A DNA stretch of 64,000 bases from Sulfuricella denitrificans skB26 (lineage in GTDB: Bacteria > Pseudomonadota > Gammaproteobacteria > Burkholderiales > Sulfuricellaceae): assembly GCF_000297055.2 (NCBI RefSeq), contig NC_022357.1:2758501-2822500 (forward strand), in the 5' to 3' direction. The notes under the pieces are model-generated. The model saw nothing but the letters and a program-made list of their open reading frames with translations. It had not been told where the DNA came from and did not search any database. The position numbers and the translations under genes are program-made. Within the stretch, counting starts at the first letter, position 1. Each line of letters begins with the position of its first letter. Shown piece after piece: positions 555-40,100 of this stretch.

Positions 555-887
555 TTAGATACAGCCAGTCGGCTTTGGCAAGCCGGCAATCTTACATGCC
601 TGCTTGGCTGGTCCGTAGGGGAACAATTCGTACAGGTACTTGCTGTTACCTTTCTCAGGTCCCAATTTCTTGCCAATGGCCTTGGTCAGAACACGAACGG
701 CGGGAGCAATCTGATAGTCGTTGTAATATTCGCGCAGAAAGTTGATCACTTCCCAGTGCGAATCGGTCAGGTCGACTTTCTCTTCCACCGCCAAGTACTT
801 GGCAGCTTCCTCATCCCACTCGCTCAGATTAACCAGGTAACCTTCTTCGTCGGTTTCGTATGTCTTGCCGTTGATTTCAAAGCCCAT
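555..887 (-). CDS. dsrC: DsrC, sulfur-carrier protein with both redox cysteines
   Basis: This 110-residue protein has the DsrC/TusE fold and full family length. It ends CKIAGLPKPTGCI, so the two C-terminal cysteines are ten residues apart, as in functional DsrC (CysB-X10-CysA). DsrC carries sulfur as a persulfide or trisulfide between DsrEFH, DsrAB and the DsrMKJOP complex in the cytoplasm. An SD-like GAGGAG precedes the ATG. It follows dsrH by 43 AT-rich bases and precedes dsrM. A second DsrC-like gene at 5965-6294 lacks both cysteines, so this copy is the catalytic carrier. Confidence 0.96.
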   Translation of the reverse strand: MGFEINGKTYETDEEGYLVNLSEWDEEAAKYLAVEEKVDLTDSHWEVINFLREYYNDYQIAPAVRVLTKAIGKKLGPEKGNSKYLYELFPYGPAKQACKIAGLPKPTGCI

Positions 888-3180: not shown

Positions 3181-3231
3181 TATTCTCTCCAAACACTTTT
3201 ATCTAAAGTTTCTGAGGCTAAATGCCAAGCA

Positions 3232-4530
3232 TCAAGCCGCGTTCGCTTTGCGCTGATTGGCCTTCTCGACTTCCTCATCCCAGCCGTCAGTACGGACATA
3301 AGGATTGGCGCGCGGCTGCAGCACCATAGTCGCATCAATATCGCGACCGATGCCTTCCAGGAAGTTGACCAGGCCGATACGGTCGATCATTTCGCCGGTG
3401 CGCTCGTGCTCCAGGGCGTTTTCGGCGAAGAAGTCGATGGTGTCCTGAGCGAGCTGATTCAAAGCATCGAAGTCCTCATCGGATTCCAGCTTCATGAACG
3501 GCACGATTACGGTCCCCAGGGAAGTACCGATCTTCAGCACACTTTTGCCACCCATCAGGACGGTCACGCCCTTGTCCTTGCCCGGAGCCAGGGCGCCGGT
3601 CATGACGTTGATGCAGTGCATGCAGCGGACGCAGCTGTGGTTTTCGATCTGCATCGACTGGGTGTCGTTGATCGCGACGCTGGAGATGCCTTCGACGGTG
3701 GAAACATCCTTGGTGTTCTTCAGGGACAGGGCCTTGGTCGGGCAGCGGCTGATCACGTCGTTGACCAGCTCGTCCATGCCGTGCTTGGCGAACCATTTCT
3801 TGCCCAGCACGTCGTCGGTCTGGATGCTGTCGCGCCAGGTGCCGATGGTGGCCATGTCGGAACGCTGAATCGAGTTGACGCAGTCGTTCGGGCAGCCGGA
3901 GAACTTGAACTTGAACTTGTATGGCAGGGCCGGGCGGTGCATGTCGTCGAGGAAGTTGTTGACCACGGTGCGCAGCGCCTTGGCTTCGTCGAAGCAGGAC
4001 TGTTCGCAGCGGGCTGCACCGACACAGGACATCGAGGTGCGCACGGCAGGACCGGCGCCACCCATATCGAAGCCCATTTCGTTCAGTTCGTCGAAAGCCG
4101 GCTGCACGTTTGCAGTGGTCGCGCCCTGGAACATGATGTCGCCAGACTGGCCATGGAAGGCGATCAGACCTGAACCATGCCGCTCCCATACATCGGCCAT
4201 CTTGCGCAGCAGGTCGGTGGTGTAGTGCATGCCCGCAGCTGGCTGGATGCGCAGGGTGTGGAACTCGGCTGCATCAGGATAGACATGTTTCTCGTTCTCG
4301 TCCTTGAGCTCGGAAAAACGCGGGATTACACCGCCGCCATAGCCGAACACACCAACGGTACCGCCCTTCCAATAACCTTTTTTGGTCGCGTAGGATGTTT
4401 CCAGCTGACCCATCAGGTCAACCATCATATCGTTGTCATTAGCCAGACGCTTGAGGCCGGTCACAAAGCTGGGCCATGGGCCGCTTTCCAGCTCGTCAAG
4501 CATAGGCGTGTCGTGTTGTTTCTTAGCCAT
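3232..4530 (-). CDS. dsrA: DsrA, reverse dissimilatory sulfite reductase alpha subunit
   Basis: A 432-residue protein of full DsrA length. The siroheme-coupled 4Fe-4S ligands appear as C169-X5-C175 and C213-X3-C217 (SGCPNDC). An inserted ferredoxin domain has cysteines at about 300, 303 and 306 (HSCVRCMHC). It is first in the operon, so its roughly 500-base upstream region should hold the dsr promoter. DsrAB oxidises sulfur held by DsrC to sulfite. The following dsrEFHC genes support the oxidative type. Confidence 0.97.
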   Translation of the reverse strand: MAKKQHDTPMLDELESGPWPSFVTGLKRLANDNDMMVDLMGQLETSYATKKGYWKGGTVGVFGYGGGVIPRFSELKDENEKHVYPDAAEFHTLRIQPAAGMHYTTDLLRKMADVWERHGSGLIAFHGQSGDIMFQGATTANVQPAFDELNEMGFDMGGAGPAVRTSMSCVGAARCEQSCFDEAKALRTVVNNFLDDMHRPALPYKFKFKFSGCPNDCVNSIQRSDMATIGTWRDSIQTDDVLGKKWFAKHGMDELVNDVISRCPTKALSLKNTKDVSTVEGISSVAINDTQSMQIENHSCVRCMHCINVMTGALAPGKDKGVTVLMGGKSVLKIGTSLGTVIVPFMKLESDEDFDALNQLAQDTIDFFAENALEHERTGEMIDRIGLVNFLEGIGRDIDATMVLQPRANPYVRTDGWDEEVEKANQRKANAA

Positions 4531-4755
4531 AGTTTTTTAATCTCCAAAAAAATTGAAACGGACGCAAGTTCCAGTCCTGCACGGCAAAGTTGCCAGCATC
4601 CTGAATTAATAAATTCTCGAAAAGCCGGCGGCCAATACCCCGCCCGCTCCGCATGCCCCTTTATGATTTGTCTCAATTCCACAAAAAACTAAAGGAACCG
4701 CGTCACCAACCTAAATACTACCGCCAATAAAGAATGGCTTTCCATCGTCCTTCAT

Positions 4756-4793
4756 GGGTGGCGCATACTACCCATCTGGGTTATGCGCCACCC
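4756..4793 (-). other. Nested hairpin in the presumed dsrA leader
   Basis: Arms of 12 bases at 4756-4767 and 4782-4793 are perfectly complementary (GGGTGGCGCATA and its complement). The 14-base loop itself contains a smaller inverted repeat, ACCCA-TC-TGGGT. It lies 226-263 bases before the dsrA start. No gene on either strand ends nearby, so it is not an obvious terminator. It may be a leader RNA structure or a protein-binding cruciform. Confidence 0.45.
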
Positions 4794-4921
4794 CCTGCTT
4801 GGGATATAACCTGGCCGCCTCTTGATTCCTGACCGCCCTATCCCCATATAATACGACAACGATATGTATACGGTCCAATTTCATACGCAGGATCTTGAAG
4901 CCGCTGTTTCCACACCGAGAC

Positions 4922-5021
4922 TTAGCAGTTTGCTAAATATTTGCGGCTAGGTCAAGTGGCGGATTGCTTAGTAACTTTGTGTCTATAATTTGTACAGTGT
5001 CTATATTACTTAGTGTCTAAA
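4922..5021. promoter_or_regulatory. Palindrome and three iterated GTGTCTA boxes upstream of the 5043 gene
   Basis: TTAGCA-GTT-TGCTAA forms a 6-base inverted repeat at 4922-4936. It is followed by the direct repeat GTGTCTA(T/A)A at 4979, 4997 and 5013, spaced 18 and 16 bases, in AT-rich sequence ending about 20 bases before the ATG at 5043. The near-helical spacing suggests binding of an oligomeric regulator on one DNA face; no regulator is identified. Confidence 0.4.
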
Positions 5022-5042: not shown

Positions 5043-5273
5043 ATGGCAATGGAAGAAGCTACAAAAATCGACAAATTTACTGCCACGCCCTTTCGGCAGG
5101 ATATTGAGTTACACCACGTTGACCACGAAGCGGGATTCTCTACGCTGCGCATAAGGATCCGCGAACAAAAGCGTTTCACTATCTTTGATATCGACGAGCA
5201 TACTGCCGAACATTGGGGGCGCGCCATGCTGGAATGGGCGGAAACCCGCAAGAATGAAGGAGCACTAAAATAG
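5043..5273 (+). CDS. Small protein of unknown function in a sulfur-metabolism operon
   Basis: A 76-residue, charged, soluble protein (MAMEEATKIDKFTATPFRQD...). It contains RIRIREQKRFTIFDID and an EHWGRAMLEWAE helix near the C-terminus. It has no cysteines, signal peptide or membrane segment. I do not recognise the family with confidence. It is first in the plus-strand operon and 20 bases before the Cas6-like gene, so it is a likely partner of that protein or of the DsrC-like protein. The AT-rich upstream region with iterated boxes supports it as the first gene of the operon. Confidence 0.75.
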   Translation: MAMEEATKIDKFTATPFRQDIELHHVDHEAGFSTLRIRIREQKRFTIFDIDEHTAEHWGRAMLEWAETRKNEGALK

Positions 5274-5293
5274 GCTGGCCAATCGAAAGCGGC

Positions 5294-5914
5294 ATGGTCA
5301 ACCCAGATTTTGACAATGCCGCGGTAACCGAAGTTCACTTTGAACTGCAAGGTACTTTGCTGCCCCGGGATCACGGCTATCCGTTATTCCTCGAACTATC
5401 TCGCCTGCTGCCCTGGCTACCTGACGAGGCACTGGCCGCGGTTCATCACATCCATGCCGCGGAAACCGGTAAGGATGACCTGCTTATATTGAACCGACGG
5501 GCCAAGCTTGTGATACGTGTCCCCATACATCGGGAGGCCGACCTGGCGACTCTATCCGGCCAGACTGTCACGATTGGCGGCTTCAAACTGACTATTGGCA
5601 AGGGCAAAACCAAGCCACTGACACGCCACTCTCCACTGTATGCTCACTGCGTCACCACCGGCAGCATGGATGAGGAAGCTTTTGCCAGCGACATCAATCG
5701 CATTTTGGATGAACTAAAGATCACCTGCCGCTTCATCTGCGGCCGGCGCCAAACCATCACAACCGCTGACGGCGTGGCCTATGGTTATAGCTTGCTGCTG
5801 CACGAGTTACCGATTGATCAATCCATCCTGGTACAACAGCGAGGTATGGGCGGCAATCGAAAAATCGGCTGCGGCATCTTCATCCCGCACAAATCCACCA
5901 ACGCTCTGGTGTAG
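5294..5914 (+). CDS. Stand-alone Cas6/Cmx6-like protein
   Basis: A 206-residue protein. It begins its fold with VHFELQGTLLPRDHGYPLFLELSRLLPWL and ends with a glycine-rich loop, QQRGMGGNRKIGCGIFIP. The DHGY motif, the middle LYAHCVTTG, and this C-terminal GxGGxRKxGCGxFxP pattern are what I remember of the type I-MYXAN Cas6/Cmx6 family (about 200 residues). Cas6 proteins bind and cut CRISPR RNA through two RAMP/ferredoxin-like folds, and the glycine-rich loop contacts RNA. No CRISPR repeats or other cas genes are in this window. Co-location with sulfur genes suggests a non-CRISPR, RNA-related or purely structural role. The family call is from recalled motifs and the function is unknown. Confidence 0.7.
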   Translation: MVNPDFDNAAVTEVHFELQGTLLPRDHGYPLFLELSRLLPWLPDEALAAVHHIHAAETGKDDLLILNRRAKLVIRVPIHREADLATLSGQTVTIGGFKLTIGKGKTKPLTRHSPLYAHCVTTGSMDEEAFASDINRILDELKITCRFICGRRQTITTADGVAYGYSLLLHELPIDQSILVQQRGMGGNRKIGCGIFIPHKSTNALV

Positions 5915-5964
5915 AATACCATTACATTTTTTATCACCCGCAAACTTTCAAAGGAGGAATCACT

Positions 5965-6294
5965 ATGGCATACGAAGTAAACGGCGTTGAGCTTGAAACC
6001 GACGAGGAAGGCTACCTACTTGAGCCGAACTACAGTGACGAGATTGTCCCCATTATCGCCGAAACAGAAGGCCTCGCAATGAACGACGAGCGCTGGGCGG
6101 TCGTCAACTACATGCGCGAGCAATACAAAGAACATGGCCACACGCCAACATTCCGTAACATGCTGAAAGACTGGGAAAAGATACGCCCCGGCACCGACAG
6201 CAAATACCTGTACACACAGTTTCCAGAAATGCCGGCCAAACAGGCTGCCAAGGTAGCTGGTCTGCCCAAGCCTTATGGCAAAGGCGGATACTAA
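5965..6294 (+). CDS. DsrC-like protein lacking both redox cysteines
   Basis: A 109-residue protein clearly homologous to DsrC/TusE: it shares the EEGYL, YMREQY and SKYLYxxFPxxPAKQA segments with the dsrC product at 555-887. Its C-terminus is PAKQAAKVAGLPKPYGKGGY, so CysB is replaced by Ala and CysA by Gly/Lys, and no cysteine is left anywhere. It cannot carry persulfide in the DsrC way. Cysteine-less DsrC relatives have been proposed to have regulatory roles (RspA-type proteins). A perfect AAGGAGG lies eight bases before the ATG, suggesting strong translation. It lies between the Cas6-like and rhodanese genes. Confidence 0.9.
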   Translation: MAYEVNGVELETDEEGYLLEPNYSDEIVPIIAETEGLAMNDERWAVVNYMREQYKEHGHTPTFRNMLKDWEKIRPGTDSKYLYTQFPEMPAKQAAKVAGLPKPYGKGGY

Positions 6295-6377
6295 CGTCTG
6301 GTAATGGACGATGGGGGATAACCCCATCGTCCTGCCCCACTCCTTCCGCATCACCCATACCGATCACCCAACACCCC

Positions 6378-7235
6378 ATGAAGGCCACCACTCTGGTTTC
6401 CATCGAAGAGCTGGCTCAGCATCTTGACGACCCTAGCTGGATCGTCTTTGATTGCCGCTTCACGCTCACAGACCCGGAAGCGGGTCGGCGTGCCTACGTG
6501 CACGGCCATATACCGGGCGCACGCTACGTCCATCTGGATGATGACCTCTCATCCCCGATTACTCCCACCAGCGGGCGCCACCCGCTACCCAGTCCGCAAC
6601 TTCTGAGCGAAAAGCTGGGGCTATGGGGCGTGGACAGCACCAAACAAGTCGTCGTCTACGATGACAGTTTCGGCTCTATGGCAGTGAGAATGTGGTGGCT
6701 GTTGCGCTGGCTAGGCCATGACGCCGTAGCCCTGCTCAACGGCGGTCTACCCATGTGGATGCGCCAGAAATTGCCTGTCACCTCTGATCCGTCCAAAATC
6801 CTTCCGTCCCAATTCATTCCCCATCTGCAAAGCTCGATGCAGGCAGACGCTACCGAAGTGGATCAGGCTCGGCAAGATTACAACAGAGTGATTATTGATG
6901 CCCGGCCTGAAGATCGCTTCAACGGAGAACGCGAACCGCTGGACAAGGTGGCAGGACATATCCCCGGCTCCATCAACTGGAACTTCGAAGAAAATATCGA
7001 CTTCGACAGCACCTATCTGCCCGCTGAAGAATTACGCGAAGCTTACCTCAACCTGCTGCACGGCATTCCCCCGCAACAGGTCATCCATGTTTGCGGTTCC
7101 GGCGTAACCGCCTGCCACAATATTTTGGCCATGGAAATTGCCGGATTGCCCAGTGGCAAGCTTTACCCCGGCTCATGGAGCGAGTGGATCACCGACTCAT
7201 CCCGTCCGATCGAAGTCGGCCCTGCAGGAGAATAA
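6378..7235 (+). CDS. Two-domain rhodanese-family sulfurtransferase
   Basis: A 285-residue protein with two rhodanese domains, the usual length for thiosulfate/3-mercaptopyruvate sulfurtransferases (SseA type). The N-terminal domain has WIVFDCRFTLTDPEAGRRAY. The C-terminal domain has IIDARPEDRFNGE and the active-site loop CGSGVTACHN near residues 239-248, where the first cysteine would take the persulfide. The CGSGVTAC loop is that of the mercaptopyruvate/thiosulfate class; substrate cannot be fixed from sequence. It has no signal peptide, so it is cytoplasmic. One base separates it from the next gene, so the two are co-transcribed. Confidence 0.9.
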   Translation: MKATTLVSIEELAQHLDDPSWIVFDCRFTLTDPEAGRRAYVHGHIPGARYVHLDDDLSSPITPTSGRHPLPSPQLLSEKLGLWGVDSTKQVVVYDDSFGSMAVRMWWLLRWLGHDAVALLNGGLPMWMRQKLPVTSDPSKILPSQFIPHLQSSMQADATEVDQARQDYNRVIIDARPEDRFNGEREPLDKVAGHIPGSINWNFEENIDFDSTYLPAEELREAYLNLLHGIPPQQVIHVCGSGVTACHNILAMEIAGLPSGKLYPGSWSEWITDSSRPIEVGPAGE

Positions 7236-7236
7236 C

Positions 7237-7818
7237 ATGAGCAAAATACGGATAAAAACCAACTGGTTCAAGAAAGATGGGCTACCGAAGGATCCTGCGG
7301 AAACTGCTTCTGTTCTGGCCATGATACTGTGGCGTCTGGCAGACAAGTTCACCATAAATCTGTCAAAAGCAGATTACGACATCATCACGCCTGAACGCGG
7401 GTTTGTCCTGATGGCCGAGTTCCTCGCTTTCGAAGTGCAGTACGCCGATCGCCTTGCTTACAATCGCATCGATGACGCAACGCGCACTGGCTTCATCCAG
7501 GCGCTGGCCAAGCGATTATCCGAAATGATGGAAGAAAACATTCTCGCAATCGCGCCGAATAACGACGAAGGTTACAATTACAAAGCTGGCTTCATCGACC
7601 TGCTCAACCGTCGTCTGGTGGATTACGCCACCTTCGACCTGATTGACGAAAAACCCGGATTCGCCACGTTGCGCTACCTTGGCAACTGCATCCGCGAAGT
7701 CATGGACAAGCGTGACCAGCCGTGGATCATCGACCAGATCATGGACATCGAATCGCCGGAAGCGGTCGAGACCATCAAAAAAACGATGCAGGGCCTGCTG
7801 GAAACCGAGGAAGAGTAA
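7237..7818 (+). CDS. Conserved-looking protein of unknown function downstream of the rhodanese
   Basis: The start is the ATG at 7237 (MSKIRIKTNWFKKDG), with AGGAG six bases upstream, inside the end of the rhodanese gene. It is a 193-residue, mostly helical, acidic soluble protein, without cysteine motifs except one internal GNCIREV. It has no signal peptide or membrane segment. I do not recognise the family. Tight spacing after the sulfurtransferase ties it to the plus-strand sulfur operon, of which it is the last gene; ppdK lies convergent 69 bases later. Confidence 0.85.
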   Translation: MSKIRIKTNWFKKDGLPKDPAETASVLAMILWRLADKFTINLSKADYDIITPERGFVLMAEFLAFEVQYADRLAYNRIDDATRTGFIQALAKRLSEMMEENILAIAPNNDEGYNYKAGFIDLLNRRLVDYATFDLIDEKPGFATLRYLGNCIREVMDKRDQPWIIDQIMDIESPEAVETIKKTMQGLLETEEE

Positions 7819-37196: not shown

Positions 37197-40100
37197 ATGG
37201 ACTTGACCGCGGTATACAGCAAAACAGCCAAGGGTGTGCAGGCCATCACCCAGAAAGGCAAGCGCTTGCCCGCCAAGCTCGCGCGAGCACTCAGCCTGGT
37301 GAACGGCAGGGCAACGGTCGAAGAAATTCTGGAAAAAGCCGGTGAGCCGCCCACCTCCACGCTTCCTCAGATCCTGGCCGATCTGGCTAAAGACGGCTAC
37401 CTCAAGGCGGTTGCAAGAGAACCCTTTACCCAGTTTTCAAGCATTCCCGATAACTCAGCCTCCATGGTCGTTTCAGAAACCATCGACGAAACCTTTTTCA
37501 AGGTGCTGGCCGAAACCGAAGCTCGCAAAAAACTCATGAAAGAAGCTGCGGAAAACCCGCAGGAAACTCGGCAAAAGGCCCATGAAAAATCAGCGGCCAT
37601 GGAGGAAGAGGAGGCAATGCGCCGAAAAAATGAGGCGCGGGAAGTTGCCGAAGCAGAAGAGCGTTCACGGCGGGAAGGAGTGCAACGAAAAATAGCCGAA
37701 GCCATGGCGCTGGAAGAAGCTTCGCTTAAGGCTCGCAAGAAAGCCGAGCTCCAGGCACTCCGGGAAAAAGCGGAAAAAGACACGGCCGAAGCCGAGGAAC
37801 GAGCCCGCCGGGAAGCTCAGGAGCAGGCGGCCAAAGAAGCGGAAATCAGAGCGGCTGCGGCGCGCAAGACGCGGGAAGAAGCCGAAGATCGCGCGCAACA
37901 TGAAGCGGAGAAAAAAAGAATTGCCGAGGCCAAAGCTCGCGGAGAAGCCGAGCGCAAGGCACGCGAGGAAGAAGAGGCCAGGATACTCCAGAGGAAAATC
38001 GAGAAGGATAGGGCCGAAGCCGAAGAACAGGCCCGCAGGGAAAAAGTAGAAAAAGAAAAAGCTGAGGCCGAAGAACGATTACGCCAGGAGGCCCAGGAGA
38101 AGTCCGCCAAAGAAGCCCGCATCAGAGAGGCGGCAGAACGCAAGGCACAGGAAGAAGCTGCAGAAATTGCGCTGGCAAAAGAAGAAGCAGAGCGCAAAGA
38201 AACGCGTGAACGGGAAGAAGCCGAGGCCAGAGCCAAGGCGGAGGCTGAGGAAGAAGCAAGGGCCGAAGCCCGGAGACAACTCAGGCTGGAAGCCCGCGCC
38301 CGGGAAGAAGCCGAGGCCAAAGCGAAAGCAGAAGCCGAAGCTCGGGCCATCATGGAAGCAGAAGAAAAAGCTCGGGCCGAAGAGGAAGCCCGGATAAAAG
38401 CCGAAGCCGAGGCCAGGGCGCAGGAGGAGGCCGAGCACAAGGCTCGCGAGGAAGCTGAAGCCTGGGAAAAGCAAGAAGCCGAAGCGCGGGCCATCGTGGA
38501 AGCAGAAGAAAGAGCTCGGGCCGAAGAGGAGTCACGGATAAAAGCCGAGGCTGAGGCCAGTGAGCGGGAAGAAGCCGAACGCAAAGCTCGCGAGGATGAA
38601 GAAGACAGGAAAAAGCGAGAAGCCGAAGTACGAGCCATCGTGGAAGCAGAAGAAAGAGCTCGGGCCGAAGAGGAGTCACGGATAAAAGCCGAGGCTGAGG
38701 CCAGTGAGCGGGAAGAAGCCGAGCGCAAGGCTCGCGAGGATGAAGAAGCCAGGGCAATAGCCGAAGTCGAAGAACGGACACGCTGGGAAGCCGAGGAAAA
38801 AATTCGCGCACAGGAAGAGGCGCTGGCAAAAGCCCGTGCAGAGGCGGACCGGAAAGCGCGGGAAGAGGCCGAGCAGGAAAAGAGAGAACGGGCAGATATA
38901 GAAGCCAGGGCCAGAGCGCTGGCTGATGCACGCGCCGAGGAAGCTGAAAAAGCCCGGCAAAAGGCGCTGGCAAAGCCCAGGAAATTCAAACACCCCATCA
39001 AATGGGGCAAGGCCGCCGCAATTTCGCTGGCAGCGCTGATTTTATTGCCGATCGTGCTGCTGCAAGTCATGAGCCTGAATATCTTCATCCCCCCCATTGA
39101 AAAACTGGCCTCGAACAGGATGGGCGAGCCCGTCTCCATCAGCTCCATGCGCGCCTCCCTATGGCCAGCGCCCCATCTGCAGCTTGAAGGCATCACCATC
39201 GGAAAATTGCGCGACATCAAAATCCCCACGGTCCGGGTCATCCCCGAACTAGCCGCTTTTTTCGGCGAAACTAAAATGATCAAAGCCATCCAGGTAGAGT
39301 CAGTCACGATCGATCAGGATGCCTTGACTCGGGCGATCGCCTGGGTTGGGCCAAGCGACAGCGCCGAAAAAATCCAGGCCCGCCGAATCGTCATCAAAAC
39401 GGCAACCATTGATGTGAAAGGCATACCGCTACCCCCATTTGAGGTGGAGGTCGCGCTGGCGGAGACGGGCAAATTCGAGCAGGCAAACATCAGAAGTACG
39501 GACAAGAAAATCGAAGTGGCTATCACCCCGAAAAGCGAGGGGTTCGAAGTCAATATTGCCGCCAACGACTGGCAGCCCCCGCTCTGGCCGAATCTGACCT
39601 TCACCGAACTGCACGCCAAAGCCATGGCAACCTCGGGGAGCATGCGGATCAGCGAGATCGAGGGCCGACTCTACGGCGGCAAAGCCAAAGGCAACGCAAC
39701 CATCAAATGGGGTGACTTGTGGAGCGCGGAAGGGGATCTCTACATTGAAAACATTTTGCTGGCTGGAGTGATGCCAGCACTGACGAACGACATGGCGCTG
39801 AGTGGCAAGCTCGATGCAAAAACCGTTTATTCGATGCAGTCCAGAGACCTGGGCACCCTCTTCGACAACCCCAGAATCAAGACCAGCTTTAACGTCCGCG
39901 ATGGCGCCATCGACAACATCGACCTGGCACGCGCGATCCAGCCAAGAGCCACAGAAACCACCGGCGGCAAAACCCTGTTTGCGACTCTCTCGGGAAGCAT
40001 GACGCTGGATAGGCAGCGCTATCAATACCGGCAAATGAAGCTCGCGGCAGGCCTGCTCACGGCCAGTGGCGAAGCCGACATCATGCCGGACAAGAAACTG

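Follow-up and report, generated by a model that had tools for sequence, protein, structure and literature searches.

A Cas6-family protein, without CRISPR, encoded next to sulfur-oxidation genes in many bacteria

The divergent dsr locus of Sulfuricella denitrificans

The window analyzed here is a 64-kb stretch of the Sulfuricella denitrificans skB26 genome that carries genes of the reverse-Dsr (rDsr) pathway, one of the main routes by which organisms oxidize sulfur. After dsrA the gene order is dsrB, E, F, and H, followed by the canonical dsrC. Five plus-strand open reading frames at 5043–7818 diverge from dsrA and are separated from one another by gaps of 20, 50, 83, and 1 nt. A first-pass annotation of the window had described this closely packed, divergent group of genes, and all of the reading frames and short gaps were confirmed. 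The features of the locus are as follows, in window coordinates.

555–887, minus strand: canonical dsrC, both C-terminal cysteines present (PF04358, 162.9 bits; tail KQACKIAGLPKPTGCI)
3232–4530, minus strand: dsrA, divergent from the operon (TIGR02064, 499.9 bits)
4768–4784, no strand assigned: operator-like dyad CTACCC-ATCT-GGGTTAT, within the promoter region shared by the divergent genes
5043–5273, plus strand: 76-aa DUF6967 protein, whose gene opens the operon (PF22295, E = 9.9e-30)
5294–5914, plus strand: Cas6-family (RAMP) protein, 206 aa, after a gap of 20 nt
5965–6294, plus strand: cysteine-less DsrC paralogue (RspA-type), 109 aa, after a gap of 50 nt (tail KQAAKVAGLPKPYGKGGY)
6378–7235, plus strand: rhodanese/3-mercaptopyruvate sulfurtransferase-like protein, 285 aa, after a gap of 83 nt (PF00581, E = 2.1e-30)
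7237–7818, plus strand: u193 family protein, all-helical, no named family, 193 aa, after a gap of 1 nt

Two of these products had been listed as unknowns. The 76-residue protein instead belongs to a Pfam family, DUF6967. The 193-residue protein stayed below cut-off with every Pfam and NCBIfam profile, but it is a member of a conserved helical family; its AlphaFold2 model (pLDDT 88.2) is all-helical, and a structure search with that model returned no PDB match at E ≤ 0.001. The rhodanese matches PF00581, and it scores 150 bits against the PRK11493 model, under the cut-off of 250.

A Cas6-family protein and its DsrC-like neighbor

Cas6/Cmx6-type motifs had been quoted for the 206-residue protein. 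These motifs are present, and the protein scores above cut-off with both PF09559 (211.7 bits, E = 1.2e-62; cut-off 26.7 bits) and the NCBIfam equivalog model TIGR02807 for cas6_cmx6 (152.1 bits; cut-off 98.85). Its sequence matches PDB 8fcj_B at E = 5.7e-16. A structural comparison with Cas6 families, proposed along with the first-pass annotation, returned a Cas6 fold: In a Foldseek search with the AlphaFold model (pLDDT 92.6), Cas6 chains rank top, the best being 8fcj_B, a CAST Cas6, at TM 0.85. The window at 5294–5914 therefore encodes a true member of the Cas6 (RAMP) family, and the motif match did not arise by chance.

In PMC3652601, Cas6 is defined by two tandem RRM/RAMP domains with a C-terminal glycine-rich loop, and the active-site histidine is placed at helix alpha1, with some Cas6 enzymes lacking it. 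Model and alignment give the window protein both tandem domains and the loop (about residues 183–198), and its other marks are H27, where helix 1 begins, together with R69, R75, and Q181. H27 directly precedes helix 28–38 in the model, a position that is putatively equivalent to the Cas6 active site, as assigned by the helix location given in that paper. The histidine was found in 50/50 sequences of the first alignments and in 56 of the 59 members of a wider dsr-class set, the window protein included; it is replaced by Asn in one member (L109) and by Tyr in two (L114 and L115). Cutting thus cannot be a universal function of the family, and the loss of invariance lowers the odds of cutting but not those of binding.

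Five residues (R69, R75, G186, G192, and G194) are invariant across the 59 dsr-class sequences, and Q181 is found in 58. In the alignment R75, Q181, and the loop glycines are common to dsr-class and CRISPR-linked Cas6 proteins. Other conserved positions are characteristic of the dsr class, namely R69, which occurs in 1/5 CRISPR-linked proteins, and E127 (58/59) and H51 (54/59), which occur in 0/5. An NGWxRP insert, present in most other-class members, is absent from the CRISPR-linked proteins, the window protein, and 17/17 other same-order members. As judged from sequence comparison, the gene is evidently under purifying selection, with dN/dS of 0.05–0.28 in five of six comparisons, in which dS was mostly high (the sixth was not computable).

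The gene that follows encodes a DsrC paralogue (PF04358, 105 bits; TIGR03342 above cut-off), and its lack of cysteines, already remarked on, is complete (0 in 109 residues). Venceslau et al. reportedly used the class name RspA in 2014 for DsrC-family proteins without cysteines. The window protein belongs to this class, as it has the DsrC profile and lacks the two C-terminal cysteines. The penultimate cysteine is absent in 52/52 loci and both C-terminal cysteines in 51/52, and 50/52 RspA tails have no cysteine within the last 30 residues; the remaining cysteine of locus L112 lies at the inner cysteine position. In contrast, the canonical DsrC proteins of the same clusters keep both cysteines (23/23); the module shares its locus and a paralogue family with the DsrC/DsrEFH sulfur relay of rDsr oxidizers but differs in the carrier residues. 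What sets the RspA proteins described here apart within their class is that they almost constantly accompany a Cas6-family gene that diverges from dsrAB, a link for which no report was found in the open-access literature searched. In the available part of PMC3368242, the DsrC paralogues reported for Allochromatium vinosum are not numbered beside the dsr cluster.

Distribution with dsrA and independence from Cas1 and the cognate Cas7

Profile matches for PF09559, dsrA, Cas1, and the DsrC family were surveyed in 369 genomes of the window's class. PF09559 was found in 118 genomes and dsrA in 119; both were present in 111, the Cas6-like gene only in 7, dsrA only in 8, and neither in 243. The link to sulfur metabolism suggested for the operon is therefore far stronger than could be known from one window, with dsrA in 111 of the 118 carriers. 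Same-order genomes from beyond the window's family, 39 in all, show the same pattern; a count by eye gave 7 with both genes and 32 with neither. The distribution of the Cas6-like gene follows dsrA and not DsrC/TusE in general: Among 187 DsrC-family genomes, 69 lack the Cas6-like gene, and by subtraction of lists 61 of these 69 also lack dsrA.

The co-occurrence is matched by linkage, as expected of an rDsr accessory module. The Cas6-like gene and dsrA share a contig in 84/118 carriers; in 82 of the 84 they are at most 5 kb apart, always divergent (82/82), and in the two exceptions, G325 and G109, they are 517 and 41 kb apart. The other 34 carriers do not have both genes on one contig; 7 of them lack dsrA, and in the remaining 27 the only dsrA match is on a different contig, with contig breaks possibly among these. 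In one genome with dsrA on another contig (G267), the Cas6-like and DsrC genes adjoin dsrE. Among mapped loci, dsrA is divergent in 37/40 other-class and 18/18 same-order cases, and RspA lies downstream in 35/40 and 17/18, respectively. Within an initial set of loci, two (L016 and L026) have their nearby DsrC gene on the opposite strand, and no DsrC gene was seen within 1.5 kb of the Cas6-like gene in two more (L022 and L031). The other partners vary by lineage: One group has a TauD-like gene (33/40 other-class loci), c5, and in some cases c13, and the other has DUF6967 (17/18 same-order loci) and the rhodanese (14/18); u193 is found in 18/18 same-order and 19/40 other-class loci. Because the neighbors differ in this way, the gene order does not prove a fixed complex.

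The earlier statement that the 64-kb window has no CRISPR array was borne out by a search for direct repeats of at least 20 nt within 200 nt. Four direct-repeat families were found: One is a 25-nt pair at 48.5 kb, and the other three fall in a single coding-looking repeat stretch at 38.2–38.97 kb. An Rfam search of the window gave a single tRNA at the gathering threshold and nothing else. Whole-genome search of the same strain found neither Cas1 nor a DevR-type Cas7, and its best Cas3-core match, at 39.3 of the required 102.45 bits, falls below cut-off; the cognate DevR-Cas7 was found in 0/143 genomes searched. Cas1 is present in 50/118 carriers and 85/251 noncarriers, which is no association by a Fisher p-value that ignores the relatedness of the genomes (p = 0.13). 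In this class, then, the neighborhood survey that had been suggested places the family near dsr and does not tie it to Cas1, so that neither of the two outcomes named in advance as refuting the idea, no Cas6 fold or a family bound to CRISPR and never near dsr, was obtained. A functional CRISPR Cas6 would cleave CRISPR repeat RNA and would have an array and cas genes alongside or elsewhere in its genome; in the window, where arrays were sought, the neighbors are dsr and module genes, with no cas3, cas8, cas7, or cas5 adjoining. By these searches, of the window for arrays and of the genome for Cas1, DevR-Cas7, and Cas3, the Cas6-like protein does not belong to a CRISPR system.

Relatives that are linked to CRISPR look different. 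Five of six plasmid matches lie in cas6-cas3-cas8-cas7-cas5 operons, and a scan of genome contigs with a cyanobacterial Cas6 gave only two loci, both with cas3-cmx8-cas7-cas5 behind cas6. The window protein resembles Cas6/Cmx6 of type I-B and I-MYXAN systems and of the type I-B CAST (PDB 8fcj) in profile, in the two-domain RAMP fold, and in the glycine-rich loop; the helix-1 histidine is shared with 5/5 plasmid Cas6 proteins, while 8fcj has Asn there. It differs in having no cas3, cas8, cas7, or cas5 alongside, in the dsr-class-specific residues, and in its ties to dsrA and RspA. It also lies on the other side of the tree, in which a well-supported branch separates dsr-class from CRISPR-linked proteins; some of its branches, including the window's, are long, and because it is unrooted it does not prove the direction implied by "domesticated." A search of 50,697 phage records gave 0 matches at E ≤ 1e-5, and 46 pattern-matching stretches in viral contigs included none encoding a relative.

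Possible functions and the shared promoter region

Three kinds of candidate RNA target were considered, and no conserved target was found among them. The 41 nt around the dyad (4755–4795) can fold as a 16-bp hairpin, with z of −7.1 on one strand and −6.1 on the other. When 38 sites are compared, most flanking pairs do not outperform permuted ones, pairs 1 and 11 of 12 being the exceptions (p of 0.028 and 0.006); as the flanks mostly lack covariation, the dyad has the look of an operator in DNA and was rejected as a target in RNA. A hairpin between dsrA and dsrB is significant in 20/36 other-class and 1/13 same-order loci, and it was set aside as a general target since it is not universal. Just 5/47 Cas6–RspA gaps fold better than z −2.

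It is quite possible, though held here as a tentative reading, that this CRISPR-independent Cas6/Cmx6 member is a dedicated accessory of rDsr that tunes dsr through RNA together with RspA. The protein keeps its two-RRM fold and its glycine-rich, RNA-gripping loop; it would bind a structured cellular RNA in vivo and probably work in contact with its neighbor RspA, a DsrC look-alike unable to carry sulfur. In this scheme RspA would signal how the DsrC/DsrAB machinery stands, and the two proteins together would adjust dsr expression post-transcriptionally. RNA cutting may occur where the putative active-site histidine is kept; because this residue did not stay invariant in the wider set, the mechanism envisaged has shifted from cutting toward binding, which leaves the likelihood of this reading unchanged since cutting was only optional in it. 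A bolder version is rather unlikely: a CRISPR-free, Cas6-type ribonucleoprotein, RNA-binding and in most members perhaps RNA-cutting, could have become central to an energy metabolism, acting with RspA as a switch through which the sulfur load of DsrC sets rDsr expression in proteobacterial sulfur oxidizers.

The absence of a conserved RNA target also fits a Cas6 fold reused as a protein–protein scaffold, which would no longer need RNA and would act with RspA as an assembly or activity factor that docks on DsrAB, on DsrEFH, or on the DsrC cycle. That the closest partner is a DsrC mimic without carrier cysteines agrees with this, as do the loss of the histidine in 3/59 members, the conservation in the dsr class of R69, E127, and H51, which are not part of the common Cas6 core, and the NGWxRP insert of most other-class members. 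However, R75 and three loop glycines, shared with CRISPR-linked Cas6 and invariant in 59/59, are not obviously needed by a scaffold, and we consider this reading somewhat doubtful. Least probable by a wide measure is an ordinary Cas6 that serves arrays elsewhere in the genome in trans. The equivalog match and the presence of Cas1 in 50 carriers, with an array search that covered the 64-kb window, would allow it, but it is strongly disfavored by the cas gene searches of the window's genome, the lack of Cas1 association across the class, and the cas operons and separate branch of the CRISPR-linked relatives.

DsrC/TusE relatives function in tRNA thiolation in other bacteria, and the module might act on tRNA or rRNA, with the Cas6-like protein presenting RNA to a sulfur-transfer or hydroxylation step. 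The rhodanese and TauD-like genes, along with PKHD-type dioxygenases also found nearby, would suit such a role, but neither of the first two is a constant partner, RspA has no penultimate cysteine in any of the 52 loci, and the distribution tracks dsrA rather than DsrC/TusE. We regard this reading as improbable; a thiolation role in particular is disfavored because the DsrC paralogue lacks that cysteine and the Cas6-like gene follows dsrA. The idea first raised for this locus, an RNA module or domesticated RAMP protein tied to sulfur metabolism, is thus supported in part, by the real Cas6 protein, the lack of CRISPR at the locus, and the dsr link; RNA binding or processing is a candidate function.

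We know of no account of the rDsr pathway in which the Cas6-like gene has a place, even though it occurs in 111/119 of the dsrA-bearing genomes sampled. In the open-access literature searched, a dsr-linked Cas6 gene was nowhere described, and the words CRISPR and Cas6 are absent from the main text of two papers on dsr evolution (PMC11406059 and PMC10504309). The NCBIfam model names the window's copy a CRISPR protein; a lone PF09559 match is no evidence for a CRISPR system. That many bacteria encode a Cas6-family protein next to their sulfur-oxidation genes, with no CRISPR there, hints at an RNA-binding component of this metabolism that has gone unnoticed. If RNA binding proves true, sulfur chemolithotrophy would be subject to a kind of RNA control not described before, and Cas6 would have a life outside CRISPR.

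The dyad itself resembles what we take to be a CsoR/CstR-type regulator site. Such a regulator was rejected for the window's genome, as a search there gave no PF02583 match. The 18-mer pattern of the dyad, at up to one mismatch, has its sole genome match at this site, with two matches for the reversed-pattern control. Allowing up to two mismatches, it lies between dsrA and the module in 38/57 loci, against a mean of 1.8 and a maximum of 5 in shuffles, and this conservation suggests that dsrA and the module are coregulated.

A Cas6 fold in a sulfur-oxidation gene module

The first-pass annotation described five open reading frames divergent from dsrA, the second encoding a protein with Cas6-type motifs. 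The window sequence bears out the positions, and profile searches bear out the family (PF09559, 211.7 bits; TIGR02807, 152.1 bits, cut-off 98.85). Profiles assign three of the remaining genes to DUF6967, the DsrC family, and the rhodaneses; the fourth encodes a protein of 193 residues without a named family (here u193).

3232-4530, minus strand: dsrA
5294-5914, plus strand: Cas6-like gene, 206 residues
5965-6294, plus strand: cysteine-less DsrC paralogue
7237-7818, plus strand: 193-residue protein

By sequence, the top-scoring PDB relative is 8fcj_B, a Cas6 chain from a type I-B CAST (E=5.7e-16; 4.6e-27 with a profile). An AlphaFold2 model, built from 50 aligned sequences (the window's plus 49 relatives), has a pLDDT of 92.6 and a pTM of 0.87; its top Foldseek ranks are 8fcj_B and 8fcu_B (TM 0.85-0.86, query length), followed by Pyrococcus and other Cas6 chains. 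Helix 28-38 of the model begins right after H27. Cas6 active-site histidines are described, in PMC3652601, as lying in alpha1 or a preceding helix and as absent from some Cas6 enzymes.

A first set of 56 sequences comprises 50 dsr-class proteins, 5 CRISPR-linked ones, and 1 encoded on a Gloeobacter plasmid; H27, R75, Q181, G186, G192, and G194 occur in every one. The wider, second set consists of 59 dsr-class members, all of which have R69, R75, G186, G192, and G194, while 58 have Q181 and 56 have H27. It is replaced in three same-order members (Asn in L109, Tyr in L114 and L115) that keep the glycine-rich loop, and 8fcj_B has Asn at this position. Because H27 varies and the three glycines do not, the presumed RNA-gripping loop is conserved more than the presumed catalytic histidine.

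In an unrooted tree of 64 sequences, with long branches flagged and a bootstrap not fully settled, the 8 CRISPR-linked Cas6 proteins group together (100/96), and a branch of 100/98 parts 55 dsr-class proteins from these and the Gloeobacter protein. The window protein, the tree's sole same-order member, adjoins the split; given the lack of a root, whether it is the first dsr-class branch depends on where the root falls. Selection on the gene is purifying, with dN/dS of 0.05-0.28 in five of six comparisons, most with high dS; in the sixth, dS was not computable.

The Cas6 fold is linked to dsrA and a cysteine-less DsrC rather than to CRISPR

This association of a conserved, selected fold is shown by a census of 369 genomes of the window's class (inferred to be GTDB Gammaproteobacteria). 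PF09559 is present in 118, DsrC-family proteins in 187 (185 over cut-off), Cas1 in 135 (134 over cut-off), and dsrA in 119 (112 over cut-off and 7 with fragments of 101-242 positions), a count that excludes weaker matches of a kind also given by E. coli. PF09559 and dsrA occur together in 111 genomes, PF09559 only in 7, dsrA only in 8, and neither in 243 (odds ratio ~480, Fisher p=7e-75, a statistic that ignores kinship of genomes). With over-cut-off dsrA only, these counts are 106, 12, 6, and 245. All 118 carriers have a DsrC-family gene, as do 69 genomes without PF09559. The Cas6-like gene and dsrA share a contig in 84 carriers, lying at most 5 kb apart (median 1.7 kb) in 82, all divergent, and 41 kb and 517 kb apart in G109 and G325. 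The other 34 carriers comprise 7 without dsrA and 27 with it on a different contig, possibly including contig breaks; in G267, dsrE adjoins the Cas6-like and DsrC genes and dsrA is on another contig.

Five of the eight dsrA-only genomes were inspected (G079, G211, and G238 were left out). In G070, G110, G123, and G207, the contig ends 0.15-1.9 kb upstream of dsrA; in G355 the whole dsrA contig is just 4.7 kb, so the Cas6-like gene was possibly lost in assembly. The G123 contig still has the neighbour genes TauD-like and c5 beside dsrA. In G127, the sole PF09559-only genome inspected of seven, the contig stops at the TauD-like gene, ahead of the expected dsrA start.

PF09559 is also found in 27 of 61 genomes around the window. 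Counted by eye, 20 of the 22 genomes in the window's family carry PF09559 and 20, if fragments are counted, carry dsrA, with dsrA only in G551 and G555 and PF09559 only in G552 and G559 (79 and 74% complete); the 39 genomes outside the family have both in 7 and neither in 32. A separate phylum draw of 200 genomes, some of the same order or class, has PF09559 nowhere except in the window's own genome.

The module's DsrC paralogue, for which we take RspA as the class name, has no Cys in its last 30 residues at 50 of 52 loci. The exceptions have a Cys at neither carrier site (L075) or at the inner-cysteine position (L112), and the penultimate Cys is found in 0 of 52. Other DsrC copies at these loci have both cysteines in 23 of 25 cases; the two exceptions belong to the module itself, at loci where gene picking missed Cas6. 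DsrC-type sulfur carriage needs the penultimate cysteine, and RspA should therefore not carry sulfur as DsrC does. The Allochromatium vinosum genome is described, in PMC3368242, as having four more genes of the DsrC/TusE type with no assigned role; by their locus numbers, none adjoins the dsr cluster.

Of 29 loci of ~3.6 kb examined in a first pass besides the window's, 27 hold a DsrC-family gene, which in L016 and L026 is on the opposite strand; none was found in the ~3.6-kb stretches of L022 and L031. A second mapping covered 58 loci: the window, 17 of the 26 other carriers from the 61-genome set, and 40 other-class census carriers, a non-random choice by long contigs and family spread. Here dsrA is divergent from the module in 18/18 same-order loci (window counted) and 37/40 other-class loci. 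The DsrC paralogue is directly downstream of the Cas6-like gene in 17/18 and 35/40; it was not seen there in L111 and in L056, L061, L063, L076, and L077, respectively. Anywhere in the stretch, same-order loci have DUF6967 (17/18), rhodanese (14/18), u193 (18/18), and TauD-like (6/18) genes, and other-class loci have TauD-like (33/40), c5 (36/40), c13 (18/40), c10 (21/40), PKHD-type (27/40), u193-related (19/40), and rhodanese (3/40) genes. These counts mark Cas6-RspA beside dsrA as a near-constant core and the remainder as variable.

No Cas6-like gene lies beside ten additional dsrA copies (L124-L133; one from the window's genome, the rest from nine other genomes), among which c13 matches at one (L125) and DsrC at two. 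Around the second dsrA of the window's genome (G000:C1:2112124-2113371, L124), no other module gene was detected in 17 kb. Downstream of the module, many other-class loci (L038-L075) have a wider sulfur gene neighbourhood: a DUF6866/Sfum_1244 protein in 19/40, a "globule sulfur oxidation" protein of Alvin_2107 type (NF049856) in 14/40, and also the u193 relative.

The absence of a CRISPR array from the 64-kb window, already remarked on in the first-pass annotation, holds in a repeat search; an Rfam scan of the window gave one tRNA and nothing else. Profile searches of the window's genome found no Cas1 and no over-cut-off Cas3 core (best 39.3 bits vs 102.45, with comparably weak matches in 14/14 controls), and DevR-Cas7 was found in 0 of 143 genomes, the window's included. 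Two genome_contigs relatives and five of six plasmid relatives are within cas operons, the exception being Gloeobacter. On Gloeobacter morelensis plasmid pGMOR1 (L032 5974-6765), the Cas6/Cmx6 gene is near PAPS reductase-family and cupin genes, and no cas operon is annotated in the surrounding 12.6 kb, perhaps a second CRISPR-free setting.

A shared dyad and possible roles

The divergent intergenic region has a common dyad, TATCCC-N4-GGGATA or CTACCC-N4-GGGTAG with at most two mismatches, in 38 of 57 loci (dinucleotide-shuffle control: mean 1.8, max 5). The window's copy, foldable as a strong hairpin, is its genome's only match to the 18-mer pattern at one mismatch or fewer.

4768-4784, divergent promoter region: dyad CTACCC-N4-GGGTTAT, related to TATCCC-N4-GGGATA of other loci

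The form CTACCC-N3..5-GGGT, one mismatch allowed, is found in 7/37 other-class loci and in 16/18 same-order loci, for which simple shuffles average 1.0 and reach at most 4. Since pairs flanking the dyad show little covariation, we read it as a putative operator shared by dsr and the module. A search of the window's genome for the CsoR family as its regulator gave no match. A 2018 paper (PMC5944118) cites A. vinosum DsrC as a protein that binds upstream DNA of the dsr cluster, which makes DsrC or RspA a candidate dyad-binding protein.

The Cas6-like protein may bind RNA via its retained glycine-rich loop, with cutting limited to members that keep H27; RspA would couple it to the state of DsrC, and together they would control dsr expression. 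We put this whole mechanism at slightly under an even chance. L109, L114, and L115 provide natural tests of cutting versus binding. That the protein is purely a scaffold for other proteins is unlikely, though a serious contender, and a service to RNA modification is rather improbable. Service to CRISPR in trans is very improbable: Cas1 is found in 50/118 PF09559 carriers vs 85/251 non-carriers (p=0.13). Something else takes the rest of the probability. The portions of open-access papers covered by our search, which excluded subscription papers and preprints, report no link between Cas6 and dsr.

Many dsrA-dsrB gaps of the mapped loci contain strong GC-rich hairpins of unrelated sequence (z<=-2 in 20/36 other-class and 1/13 same-order loci); the window's gap (3181-3231) folds no better than chance. 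GTGTCTA is found three times at window 4979-5019, just upstream of the DUF6967 gene, twice in L102, once in L103, and in none of the remaining 15 same-order loci examined. At window 38199-38974 there are tandem repeats, probably coding, in which charged residues and alanine are abundant.
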